Origin: Natrarchaeobius chitinivorans
GTDB lineage: Archaea; Halobacteriota; Halobacteria; Halobacteriales; Natrialbaceae
DNA: 64,000 nt
Direction: 5' to 3'
Assembly (NCBI RefSeq): GCF_003841505.1
Contig: NZ_REGA01000003.1
Span: 1-64,000, forward strand
Shown: positions 30,681-38,620 of the stretch, in pieces
Numbering within the stretch: position 1 is the stretch's first letter
How the letters are laid out: each line of letters begins with the position of its first letter
Notes under the pieces: model-generated
The model's input: the letters and a program-made list of their open reading frames with translations, nothing else
Told to the model about the DNA's origin: nothing
The model's database searches: none
Position numbers and translations under genes: made by a program

Positions 30681-31499
30681 CTAGTTCAGAATGCTCTGTG
30701 CGACGGTCGCGAGCTGGCCGTTGTCAGCCTCGCGGAGTCGATCGTCGCCGATTTTCAGGCGCAGACGCGGTCTGCCGACGTCGATCGGGACCTTCTCGGT
30801 GTCGATCAGGCCCATGTCCTCGAGTTTGGTCTTGGTACGCGAGAACGTCGCTTTCGAGGCGATGCCGACGTCTTCGCCCCACTTGCTGATGTCGTACAGC
30901 AGCGCCTCGTTTTTCGCCGCGACGAGCAGAGAGATGGTTACCTCGTCCAGCCCGTCGCCGTCGCCGCGAGCCGTCTCGAGTGAGTTGAGGATCGAGGTGA
31001 AATCTTCCTCAGCTTCGGGGCTGATCTCCTCGGCGAGCGTCTCCCGGACGTCCGTAATCGGTGGCGTCCGGAGGTTGAACGACGTGGCACCCTCCCATCG
31101 TTCGGTGTACGTTTCGTAGGTGTCCTCGACGAACCCGTCGTCGTCGGTGACGAGTCCGCCGACGCGGTCGCCGGCGTGGACGACGGCGACGACGCGGTCG
31201 TCGGTGATCAGCAGCGAGTTTTCGGGTGCCTCGTCGATGGTCCGAAGGGAAAGCGTTCCGTCGGCGATGAGGTCGGCGGCGTTCGACGCGACGATGAAAT
31301 CGTCCATGACGTCTTTGAGCGTCCGCTCGTCGGCCAGCATCCGGATCGATGGCGACGATCCTCCGAAGTCCGTCGCGACGTTGACGAACTCCTCGATGGC
31401 GTCTCGCGAGGGGTTGATCATGTACACGTCTCCGCTTGCATCCTCGAGAACTGACCCGAGGATATCGTCAATTTGGTGGTTGAGTAAATTCGAGGTCAT
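30681..31499 (-). CDS. tbsP: Transcriptional regulator TbsP (DUF5821)
   Basis: 272 residues from ATG 31499 (MTSNLLNHQI); an ATG 12 bp upstream is possible. The N-terminal half is an alpha/beta sensor-like domain. The C-terminal 70 residues form a winged helix with KWGEDVGIASKATFSRTKTK as the recognition region. In Haloferax volcanii, TbsP acts with TrmB on gluconeogenic gene expression. It is transcribed away from the AT-rich spacer shared with the small ORF at 31882. Confidence 0.85.
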   Translation of the reverse strand: MTSNLLNHQIDDILGSVLEDASGDVYMINPSRDAIEEFVNVATDFGGSSPSIRMLADERTLKDVMDDFIVASNAADLIADGTLSLRTIDEAPENSLLITDDRVVAVVHAGDRVGGLVTDDDGFVEDTYETYTERWEGATSFNLRTPPITDVRETLAEEISPEAEEDFTSILNSLETARGDGDGLDEVTISLLVAAKNEALLYDISKWGEDVGIASKATFSRTKTKLEDMGLIDTEKVPIDVGRPRLRLKIGDDRLREADNGQLATVAQSILN

Positions 31500-31849
31500 G
31501 CCTATACACAAGTAAACGCACCCATATCACTTAATTTTGCTGGCCGTTTGCACACCAGAACTTCTACTCTTTGCGCAGACAGGTAATTTTTGGCACCCAA
31601 TATGTTATTTTCCCGACCTGTGCTGGAGGGTGGTAACGGAACACATATAATGAATATTATCCTCTCCGACGGTGCCCGGAGAGTGTACCGCGGTGCTCGA
31701 GTGACCACAGCCGCGGCTGTCGGACGAGAATACCCCACAGTCCGCTCTGAATCCGACCCGCTCCGGATCTGAATCAAACCGACGAGATCGGTGGACGGGT
31801 TGTGACGAACGAACCGTCGCCGCGAAATAGATTCGAGACTGACAATAAC
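31500..31849. other. AT-rich divergent spacer
   Basis: 350 bp between tbsP and the small ORF, clearly richer in A and T than the genes, with several TATA-like stretches (TTAATTTT near 31530, ATATAATGAATATT near 31644). It probably contains the tbsP promoter and regulatory sites. No gene is supported. Confidence 0.45.
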
Positions 31850-31857
31850 TATATATA
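31850..31857 (+). promoter_or_regulatory. TATA box for the small ORF at 31882
   Basis: TATATATA is centred 28 bp before the ATG at 31882, the strongest TATA match in this part of the window and at leaderless distance. Confidence 0.65.
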
Positions 31858-31881: not shown

Positions 31882-32022
31882 ATGGGTGTTAGCTCCGATC
31901 AGTTCCAGTGGGACCCAGTGGAGGTCGTCGACGATCAGTTGGCGTCACCGACGGATGCCGATCGGTGGGTCGGACGGGAAACCATGCGTGCAAAGCGAGT
32001 GAGCACGTACGGCGGGCCCTGA
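31882..32022 (+). CDS. Small 46-residue ORF, convergent with the CHAT protease gene
   Basis: The translation opens MGVSSDQFQWDPVEVVDDQL and ends RAKRVSTYGGP. It is acidic in the first half and basic in the second, has no Cys, and shows GC-rich third positions like its neighbours. A TATA box at 31850 places the start at leaderless distance. The stop (32020-32022) is 2 bp from the stop of the CHAT-domain gene on the other strand. Function is unknown; a link with the protease is suggested only by position. Confidence 0.6.
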   Translation: MGVSSDQFQWDPVEVVDDQLASPTDADRWVGRETMRAKRVSTYGGP

Positions 32023-32024
32023 CG

Positions 32025-34187
32025 TTACCGAGCGAACCGGGACCAGAGTTCTCCAGACCAGTAGACGTCTCCGTTGTATATGACCGATGCGTCCGTCTCC
32101 TCGAGTACGTCTGCGAGTTCCGACCGAGAGAGCGTAAAGTGTGACTCTCGGCCGCAGAGATAGGCGTATTCGTTGGTTTCCGTGTGCGGGAAGTAGTACG
32201 CACCCGTCTCCCTGGTCGAGTAACAGTCGAACGTCACGAGGAATCGATCACGGTTCTCACGTTCGTCCTCGAGTTCCTCGACGATCACCGTCGTCGGAAG
32301 TCGGTGTTCGCCCTGCACGAGCGAGTGCGTTCCGTCGCCGACGACCGCGTAATCTTTCCCCATCATGATGCGTCTTCGTGCGAGTCGCATCGCCCGCTCG
32401 ATGCTGAAGCCGTGAACGAGGAGTTTGGCGAACGTCGACCCCACTTTGACGGCGTGATCGTTCAACACCTTGCTGACCGTCACTGCGCCGGCGACGCTGC
32501 CCTTTTCGATCAACGTTCGTCCCTCGAAAAACGAGCCACAGGCGTTGAGAAAGAACGTCTGTGCGTTACATCCGTCGAGACTCGCCGTCGAGAGATAGCC
32601 GTCGGAGCATCGGAGCCCGTCCGTTTCGCAGTGACCGATGTAGTGGACGAAATCGTGTTCTCCCTCGAAGATTCGCGCGAGTTCGTCCGCCCGAAGGGAC
32701 TCCTCTACGGTGACGTGCATCGGAACCTCCTGGGATCGTTGTCGGTAGATCTTCGCGACGGTGTCGTGTTCGCCGCTCATGTCGGGATCGTTCAGGACGA
32801 CGTGGACGGAAATCGCGTCGCTGGATCGGGTCACGTACTCGAGTCGGTTCTGGTAGGCCTCCGGTGCGGATTTAAAGACGTCGATCGGGACCCCCTCTGC
32901 GAGCCAGCCGTGAACCCGCCCGTTTCTGAGTTCCGGTTTGACGATGTCCACCGACGCGACCCGTCCCGCACTCGCTCGCTGGCCGACTTCGGATCCGGAA
33001 TCGTCAGTTCGGGTTTCCCATCCCTGTCTGGCTCCGGATGACTCTTCGCCACGGTAGAAGTCGGTAAGCGATCGCTCGACTAACTCCTTGCCGTCGAGTT
33101 CGGACGTTCGCGGTTTGTAGATCATGCTCAACCGATCGAGCAGAAACGGTAACGTCTCGACGCGATCGTACGTCGGCGTGACGTACGTCGAGAGGTGCCA
33201 GTCCGGCAGTCGGTGTTCGATCGTGGCGTAGGGGACGTCGAGATACGTCGAAAGCCGGTGCTGTGGAGACGCCTCGTACAGATCGACAGGATCGAGGTCG
33301 AGCGGATCGAGCAGGTGCCTCGAGGCGAGGTTCGTTCCGTACGGGCCCGCGTTACGGACGAGACAGTCCATAAAAAAGACCTTTCGGAGCATCCGTTCGA
33401 CGTCGCGCTCGAGGTCGGGCATCGGCGAGAGTCGCTTCTCGAGGGCCGGGTCGGTGAGTCGGATCCGTGGTCGGTCGAGATCGCGGCTGATGTCGGCGTC
33501 TTCGAGCGTTCGAACGTGTGCCTGCAGGTAATACGCAAGCGGTGCAGTGACGAAAAGCGGTTCGTACGCCGAGGGGACGAGCAGTTCGATTCCCGAGTCG
33601 GGCGTCTCGGTACGGATCCTCTCGGGTATCTCGAGGGTCGGCCCGGTTTCGACCAGCGGTGGATGGCCGCGAAGGGTCGGATACGTCCGATCCGGGCCCG
33701 TCGTCTTGGAAGCCGACGCGAGGTGAGTCAGTGTCTCGGCTACGTCTGCAGGCGAGTCGGGAACGGTGATCGTTCCGGTCGGGAGTTCGTGGCGGCTTCG
33801 AAACCCGATGGCGAGGGGGGTTCGGTCCGGGAAGGTGATCACGACGGAGTCGAAGGTATCGGATCGCTCGATCGTCGCCGGCCCCGAAAATCGGAGGTAG
33901 GTCTTGATGTCCGTGTCGACGTCGACGACGTACTCGCCGGCCGAAAGCGAAAGCGTCTCCCCGCAGGGATCGAGTTCGTGTCGTTCCGGCGTGTCGAGGC
34001 CGAACGCGTAAACGATCGCGTGGGGAAATCGGAGTTCGGTCGCTTTCGCGGCGATCGAATCGTCGACGGGACGTGGGACGTCGGCGTCGGTGCCGTCGAC
34101 GTCGAATTCCTCGCCGACGACGACCAGTTCGGCGTTGTCCGCGTCGGTGACGCGAAGAGCGTGGTCTCCCACCTCCCACTCTATCAT
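32025..34187 (-). CDS. CHAT-type (caspase-like) cysteine protease, haloarchaeal
   Basis: 720 residues. The C-terminal 260 residues carry a CHAT/caspase-like domain: the His of the dyad in FVHYIGHC (His519) and the Cys in FFLNACGS (Cys550), each at the end of a hydrophobic strand, with KGSVAGAVTVSKVLND after the Cys. The N-terminal 430 residues are a mixed alpha/beta region without recognised TPRs or membrane helices. CHAT proteases act in bacterial programmed death, gasdermin and type III CRISPR systems; the haloarchaeal targets are unknown. The start codon lies inside an 18-bp palindrome. Confidence 0.8.
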   Translation of the reverse strand: MIEWEVGDHALRVTDADNAELVVVGEEFDVDGTDADVPRPVDDSIAAKATELRFPHAIVYAFGLDTPERHELDPCGETLSLSAGEYVVDVDTDIKTYLRFSGPATIERSDTFDSVVITFPDRTPLAIGFRSRHELPTGTITVPDSPADVAETLTHLASASKTTGPDRTYPTLRGHPPLVETGPTLEIPERIRTETPDSGIELLVPSAYEPLFVTAPLAYYLQAHVRTLEDADISRDLDRPRIRLTDPALEKRLSPMPDLERDVERMLRKVFFMDCLVRNAGPYGTNLASRHLLDPLDLDPVDLYEASPQHRLSTYLDVPYATIEHRLPDWHLSTYVTPTYDRVETLPFLLDRLSMIYKPRTSELDGKELVERSLTDFYRGEESSGARQGWETRTDDSGSEVGQRASAGRVASVDIVKPELRNGRVHGWLAEGVPIDVFKSAPEAYQNRLEYVTRSSDAISVHVVLNDPDMSGEHDTVAKIYRQRSQEVPMHVTVEESLRADELARIFEGEHDFVHYIGHCETDGLRCSDGYLSTASLDGCNAQTFFLNACGSFFEGRTLIEKGSVAGAVTVSKVLNDHAVKVGSTFAKLLVHGFSIERAMRLARRRIMMGKDYAVVGDGTHSLVQGEHRLPTTVIVEELEDERENRDRFLVTFDCYSTRETGAYYFPHTETNEYAYLCGRESHFTLSRSELADVLEETDASVIYNGDVYWSGELWSRFAR

Positions 34188-34450: not shown

Positions 34451-34490
34451 GGGAACGAAGCTCACGACTTCAGTCGTGGACAACTGACGT
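34451..34490. mobile_element. IS200/IS605-type right-end hairpin remnant
   Basis: GAACGAAGCTCACGACTTCA, then GTCGTGG: stem CACGACT (34463-34469) with AGTCGTG (34472-34478), preceded by GAAGC. This is the subterminal hairpin found at the right end of haloarchaeal tnpB-carrying IS200/IS605 elements. No tnpA or tnpB is nearby, so only the end remains. Confidence 0.55.
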
Positions 34491-37903: not shown

Positions 37904-38620
37904 ATGTCCCACCCACGATTCAACCGACGGAAGTTCATCGCTGCGGCAGGTACCACGAGTGCGCTCGTTCTGGCGGGGTGTGCCGACGAAGGTCCCGGCG
38001 AAGAGGAAGACGACGGAATCGACGACGATCCGGAAGAGGATCCGGTAGACGACGACGAGGATCCAGTGGACGACGACGAGGATCCGATGGACGACGACGA
38101 GGATGACGACGAAGAAGAGGAAGAAGAGGCCTACGCGTTGACCGTCACAGTCGAGGACGACGAGGAAGAACCCGTCGAAGGAGCGACCGTCACGGTCGAA
38201 GAAGACGGGATGGACGATGACGGAATGGACGACGAAGAGGACGACGGGCTGGACGACGAAGAGGACGACGGGATGGACGACGAAGAGGACGACGGGCTGG
38301 ACGACGAAGAGGACGACGGGATGGACGACGAAGAGGACGACGGGATGGACGACGACGAGAACGGGCTGGACGACGAAGACGACGAAGAGTGGGAAGAAGA
38401 GACCGACGAAGACGGCCAGGCCGAGTTCGAGGACCTCGAGGACGGCGACTACCTGGTCCACGCAGAGTACGAGGGCGACGAAGCCGAGGACGAAGTCGAG
38501 ATCGACGGCGCGGACGAGGAGATTACGCTCACTCTCGGCGAGGAAGCCGAAGCGGACGACGAAATGGACGACGAGAACGGAGACGACGAGAACGACGACG
38601 AAAACGACGACGGCATCTAG
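37904..38620 (+). CDS. TAT-exported acidic lipoprotein with internal repeat array
   Basis: 238 residues. A twin-arginine signal with lipobox (NRRKFIAAAG...VLAGC, Cys26) anchors it on the outer face. After a pure Asp/Glu/Pro stalk (residues 30-75) a small Ig-like carboxypeptidase-regulatory domain begins (YALTVTVED...GATVTVEEDG). It is interrupted by about six units of MDDEEDDG/LDDEEDDG (residues 103-155) and then resumes (DEDGQAEFEDLEDGDYLVHA). At DNA level the units are 24-27 bp and nearly identical, indicating recent slippage. The role of the domain is unknown. Confidence 0.8.
   Translation: MSHPRFNRRKFIAAAGTTSALVLAGCADEGPGEEEDDGIDDDPEEDPVDDDEDPVDDDEDPMDDDEDDDEEEEEEAYALTVTVEDDEEEPVEGATVTVEEDGMDDDGMDDEEDDGLDDEEDDGMDDEEDDGLDDEEDDGMDDEEDDGMDDDENGLDDEDDEEWEEETDEDGQAEFEDLEDGDYLVHAEYEGDEAEDEVEIDGADEEITLTLGEEAEADDEMDDENGDDENDDENDDGI
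38208..38375. repeat. 24-bp tandem repeats inside the acidic lipoprotein gene
   Basis: Repeated GACGACGAAGAGGACGACGG with ATG or CTG between units; six or so copies, differing mostly at that one codon. Copy number is likely variable between strains. Confidence 0.85.

Follow-up and report, generated by a model that had tools for sequence, protein, structure and literature searches.

What is the function of a protein of 46 amino acids whose gene converges on that of a 720-residue protease so closely that two bases (32023-32024) separate the two stop codons? The pair lies in a stretch of 64,000 nucleotides from Natrarchaeobius chitinivorans (contig NZ_REGA01000003.1, positions 1 to 64,000), which was analysed as a whole and is called the window below; the features discussed are listed in the Table. 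The translated small open reading frame (31882-32022, plus strand) reads MGVSSDQFQWDPVEVVDDQLASPTDADRWVGRETMRAKRVSTYGGP. Because the box TATATATA precedes its ATG by about 28 bp and the AT content across 176 related copies of the gene reaches its maximum at -30, a leaderless transcript is expected, and judging from the DNA a leaderless start is plausible. The initial annotation had described both the gene pair with its 2-bp convergent gap and a promoter box suited to a leaderless start; the former is exact to the base, and the latter agrees with the box and with the AT peak in the related copies. The neighbours conserved at the CHAT loci are glyA (78 of 80) and tbsP (73 of 80) and not cas genes, and tbsP is probably context that lies outside the CHAT-microprotein module. 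Two other elements of the region deserve mention in their own right. A perfect palindrome, CTCACGACTTCAGTCGTG (34461-34478, between CHAT and glyA, with a chance expectation of 0), resembles the hairpins at the ends of IS200/IS605 elements and is possibly an insertion-sequence remnant, and positions 37904-38620 encode a TAT-like lipobox protein (RRKFIAAAG...LAGC), most of which is made up of tandem repeats rich in Asp/Glu (unit length 24 bp).

Table. Features of the CHAT-microprotein locus; positions are those of the window.
Feature	Position	Strand	Basis
tbsP, divergent from the microprotein gene	30681..31511	-	conserved neighbour
TATA box TATATATA of the microprotein gene, ~28 bp 5' of the ATG	31850..31857	+	
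Microprotein gene, module-B partner of CHAT, 46 aa, ATG start, predicted leaderless	31882..32022	+	ORF, convergent conservation
Tail codons KRVSTYGGP and stop codon of the microprotein gene	31993..32022	+	invariant S, Y, G, P
CHAT-fold (clan CD) cysteine protease gene, 720 aa, ATG start	32025..34187	-	
Catalytic Cys550 codon of the CHAT protease	32538..32540	-	invariant in alignments
Catalytic His519 codon of the CHAT protease	32631..32633	-	invariant in alignments
N-terminal region of the protease, residues 1-332: beta-rich domain, then alpha/beta part	33192..34187	-	separate model

Up to an E value of 1, the 720-aa protein matched nothing in Pfam, NCBIfam or PADLOC, nor was it assigned to a PHROGs family; in particular, the Pfam CHAT model (PF12770) did not match it at E up to 1 and gave 0 matches in the entire genome at E up to 10, and the search of PDB sequences returned sortase-like matches only (E about 0.3). 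The PADLOC models of anti-phage defence matched neither the protease nor the microprotein. Comparison of the AlphaFold2 model (pLDDT 84.9, pTM 0.86) with known structures by VIA-align identified SAVED-CHAT (PDB 8tl0) as the best match (Z 16.7, rmsd 2.7, 168 residues), along with gingipain RgpB (Z 16.6, rmsd 2.8, 244 residues), separase (Z 16.3, rmsd 3.2, 205 residues) and TPR-CHAT (7y85; Z 14.6, rmsd 3.9, 220 residues), and Foldseek agreed on the fold. Because these structures match the model and the protein carries a His/Cys dyad (H519 within HYIGH, C550 within LNACGS), it is, by predicted fold and dyad, a CHAT-like cysteine protease of clan CD. The dyad had been noticed in the initial annotation, and both residues turned out to be invariant in 33 divergent homologs, in alignments of 27 and 64 rows, and in the DUF7503-linked paralogs described below. 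The N-terminal 332 residues, modelled alone (pLDDT 92.9), reached a best VIA Z of 7.9 over about residues 1-133, and no known fold could be assigned to them with confidence; the first ~132 residues are beta-supersandwich-like, with the YidC periplasmic domain and GH31 in the top rows (Z <8), and in a model this likeness may be merely that of a common arrangement. No TPR, SAVED or CRISPR relative was present among the structures compared with the N-terminal model, which agrees with the initial annotation, where no TPR or CRISPR module had been recognised, although a TPR may still be present.

A CHAT protein or a paralog was found by sequence in 365 of the 391 halobacterial genomes: nearly every haloarchaeon possesses at least one caspase-like protease of the CHAT fold, and most of the genes face a tiny gene that ends in Gly-Pro. 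When convergent ORFs of 18-110 aa with a GP-stop end were counted between -60 and +480 bp from the CHAT stop, they were found at 67 of 77 homologous CHAT genes; of the 635 other genes in these loci, 1 had such an ORF, a count that leaves out matches to S-T-Y-x-G-P and YTGP, which are the CHAT partners themselves. The partner lies within 10 bp at 42 of these 67 genes, and the background rate of a GP C-terminus is 1 in 697 long proteins. A larger figure, 174/215, includes loci picked for carrying DUF7503, hence 67/77 is the less biased one, and all partner counts come from ORF scans, in which diverged partners may be missed.

Throughout the Natrialbaceae, homologs of the microprotein gene converge on the stop codon of CHAT. 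A search of the 391 genomes for the DNA of the exact tail pattern found it in 39 (the reversed control gave 1 match), and all 39 coordinates, which we read ourselves, adjoin a CHAT gene in convergent orientation. A second weak match of the tail (G308 C26:127812) was rejected as chance, with no CHAT near it and a stop inside. In Natronorubrum texcoconense (locus L169) a further small ORF with the end NRVSTYSGP exists alongside the convergent partner; it lies on the CHAT strand, ends about 555 bp past the CHAT stop and constitutes the second tail match in genome G116. No relative was found in viral contigs. This comparative sequence evidence establishes the small ORF as a genuine gene with a wide distribution. 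The partner can also be separated from CHAT: in one genome (G119) it was relocated together with tbsP to a distance of 77 kb and is still intact, which argues that it acts in trans.

The C-terminal tail is the sole part kept in all partners. In the Natrialbaceae it follows the pattern [VI]S[TSI]Y[GSR]GP-stop: none of the 81 distinct copies departs from S(-6), Y(-4), G(-2) or P(-1), with wobble bases free to change and each of the three stop codons in use. In other families it takes forms such as YSGP, YTGP, YQGP, SGP or NGP, Gly-Pro being always terminal. The microproteins are 20-75 aa long; their N-terminal part is not conserved and in some it is absent, certain partners comprising just 20-31 aa with the tail retained, and some have lost the membrane segment. 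Inspection by eye and of hydropathy revealed neither a signal peptide nor a membrane segment in the Natrialbaceae partners of the window type (module B); in B partners of some other families the hydrophobic part ends in VSA or VGA, and GP follows the conserved hydrophobic part at a variable distance. The 46-aa microprotein itself belongs to no Pfam family, its match to RmlD (E 0.19) being at chance level. In each of the 7 genomes compared, the two modules have different tails; the genome of the window carries KRVSTYGGP in module B and GLHGQVGP in a second module, A (contig 18, G000:C18:25214-25336). The idea that the tail is conserved as a by-product of overlap with the CHAT coding sequence was ruled out, given that the two genes of the window do not overlap and that the wobble bases vary.

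The partners of module A are DUF7503 (PF24335) proteins, which mostly end in GP and are encoded away from the window locus. In all 15 genomes sampled, their gene converges on a second CHAT paralog (30-36% identity to the window CHAT, with the same dyad), and 19 of 19 further DUF7503 copies adjoin a CHAT, five of them without the GP end. At loci L260, L267, L268, L269 and L271, DUF7503 stands beside CHAT and ends in TIR, TVT, AIS, ATT or TVG. By eye and hydropathy, DUF7503 exhibits a signal-peptide-like N-terminus (LLLSQAGT.AA) followed by 7-13 residues up to GP. Our initial reading of DUF7503 as an unrelated membrane peptide was dropped after the comparison of neighbours, which placed a CHAT gene next to it. 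The window microprotein did not match the DUF7503 HMM, and a weak relation to DUF7503 (E 0.0064) was detected in one membrane-type partner of another family only.

DUF7503 is present in 334 of the 365 CHAT-containing halobacterial genomes and in 0 of the 26 CHAT-less ones (Fisher p about 5e-25, to be read with the caveat that related genomes are not independent), and in genera g30, g32, g41 and g59 the CHAT-less members lack it and their CHAT-containing congeners possess it. It is also carried by the genome of Haloferax volcanii, and a literature search for DUF7503 found no paper. In the tree, the DUF7503-linked CHATs group together as a clade with support 0.92, separate from a grouping of window-type CHATs that has weak support at its base; since both groups carry convergent partners, the pairing most likely predates the split of the two CHAT clades, as far as sequences tell.

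Because some intact CHAT genes lack a partner, CHAT must also work alone. In Natronorubrum genomes G166, G293, G271, G150 and G329 the CHAT dyad is intact and the partner is missing; it was sought beside CHAT, beside tbsP and genome-wide by the tail pattern, and was not found. Halostella and others likewise possess an intact CHAT with no adjacent partner, and so do several intact copies of the A clade, including a tandem triplet (locus L296, G023:C1:417046-423281) of three CHAT genes that retain the dyad and lack a Gly-Pro microprotein. Among catalytically dead paralogs and relatives, 0 of 6 have a partner, one of them being situated on the contig of the window. This third CHAT paralog (L291, G000:C3:298729-300627, outside the window) has Asp/Pro in place of His/Cys, is predicted from the alignment to be catalytically dead and has no Gly-Pro partner. 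Distant CHAT relatives from outside Halobacteria, i.e. from methanogens (family f19, loci L292-L295), have no evident partner. The initial annotation had proposed a small protein dedicated to the CHAT gene, occurring together with it and possibly acting as its substrate, inhibitor or trigger; it had noticed neither the Gly-Pro end as the one universal feature nor the second module elsewhere in the genome. The dedication is borne out by the small ORF being kept beside CHAT genes across Halobacteria, and the co-occurrence by the paralogous DUF7503 never being found in a genome without CHAT. As to the role, the loss of the partner from several Natronorubrum genomes that kept an intact CHAT speaks against an obligate inhibitor, and substrate and trigger both still stand.

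Taken together, CHAT and its Gly-Pro microprotein point to an undescribed protease-plus-microprotein module. The explanation that we prefer, and to which we assign roughly even chances, is that the window contains one copy of such a two-gene module, in which a trans-acting, leaderless microprotein ending in Gly-Pro controls its own cytosolic CHAT. As the partners share nothing but the tail, and as the two modules of a genome have different tails, we infer that it may be a cognate C-terminal peptide ligand or docking tag, which would dock on its own CHAT and control the protease; docking would most likely either present the microprotein to CHAT or switch CHAT on. The N-terminal part would only set the location, membrane- or signal-peptide-like in DUF7503 and soluble in the Natrialbaceae, and the expected output would be a regulated cleavage of further cell proteins by CHAT. 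Direct contact is awkward to reconcile with module A, where the DUF7503 tail may be outside the cell while the CHAT protease looks cytosolic. A bolder and distinctly more tentative generalization would regard haloarchaeal CHATs as receptors for cognate Gly-Pro peptides, made as leaderless microproteins or exported; several pairs per cell, insulated from one another, would then control proteolysis in signalling or cell death.

A regulatory ligand is favoured over a substrate because no cleavage-site residue is conserved. Still, it is possible, with a minority share of our confidence, that CHAT cuts the microprotein near its C-terminus and thereby releases or inactivates a membrane-active peptide: CHAT relatives cleave dedicated partners (Csx29 cuts Csx30, PMC10028731; gasdermin systems are another case of a dedicated partner, PMC10989679), and a hydrophobic segment is followed by a short tail in DUF7503 and in several B partners. 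However, the P1 residue of such a cut is not conserved, conservation is maximal at the free C-terminus, and the N-terminal part is unconserved and sometimes absent. Or perhaps the precursor is exported and its tail re-imported to bind the cytosolic CHAT, as in arbitrium and RRNPP signalling? The signal-peptide-like part of DUF7503 with its 7-13 residues ending in GP, the VSA/VGA end of the hydrophobic part in some B partner families and the module-specific tails would be in accord with this; we nevertheless regard it as unlikely, given Natrialbaceae B partners without a signal peptide, no linked importer or exporter, and signal peptides called by eye and hydropathy alone.

Quite unlikely, in our opinion, is an antitoxin role, in which a short-lived microprotein would inhibit CHAT by plugging the active site with its tail, and an end to its synthesis would release the protease and kill the cell. 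In favour of it, the gene is small and predicted to be leaderless, the partner is never found without CHAT and no partners accompany the catalytically dead paralogs, but several Natronorubrum genomes without the partner retain the catalytic residues, and Halostella and others have no adjacent partner either. Finally, the fact that the tail terminates exactly at the stop codon recalls regulatory arrest peptides of the SecM/TnaC type, with the ribosome stalling at Gly-Pro-stop, and a proline before the stop does slow termination. We find this hardly credible, as there is no downstream gene on the same strand to be regulated, the spacing between the hydrophobic part and GP varies, and the partner is intact at 77 kb from CHAT in G119.

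The preferred model, a Gly-Pro ligand that controls its own CHAT, has partial parallels in known systems. In arbitrium and RRNPP systems an adjacent gene encodes a short protein, the C-terminal residues of which are the specific part; here, judging by sequence, the receptor would be a CHAT protease instead of a TPR regulator, and the hydrophobic signal-like segment is found in the A type and absent from the window type. In bacterial operons that combine a gasdermin with a CHAT-type protease, the protease adjoins a membrane-active protein, whereas the 46-aa partner contains no gasdermin domain and the Natrialbaceae partners lack a membrane segment. The pore former of bacterial gasdermin systems is held inactive by a short C-terminal peptide (PMC10989679). 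SAVED-CHAT (8tl0) is the best structural match to the protease domain, but the haloarchaeal protein exhibits no visible SAVED domain, no CRISPR context and no sign of filaments, and its partner is the Gly-Pro microprotein. TPR-CHAT/Csx29 of Craspase has the fold in common with the haloarchaeal CHAT and both have a dedicated partner; the differences are that no TPR and no Cas7-11 were found and that Csx30 comprises 565 aa compared with 46 aa of the microprotein. Csx29 requires C-terminal residues of Csx30 (PMC10028731). DUF7503 resembles the window microprotein in being short, haloarchaeal, mostly GP-ended and convergent with CHAT, and differs from it in that the latter is negative with the DUF7503 HMM and has no hydrophobic segment, and that DUF7503 partners the other CHAT clade.

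Literature searches revealed no CHAT paired with a Gly-Pro microprotein and no CHAT domain in halophilic archaea. Haloferax volcanii exhibits a strong caspase-like activity with no assigned gene, gene homologues being lacking (PMC3615174); the CHAT family is a candidate for the gene behind this orphan activity, although CHAT relatives need not be Asp-specific. Thus, a near-universal haloarchaeal protease family (365/391), missed by Pfam, NCBIfam and PADLOC, gains a link to a dedicated microprotein family, DUF7503 gains a functional context, and the caspase-like activity of Haloferax gains a concrete candidate gene family.
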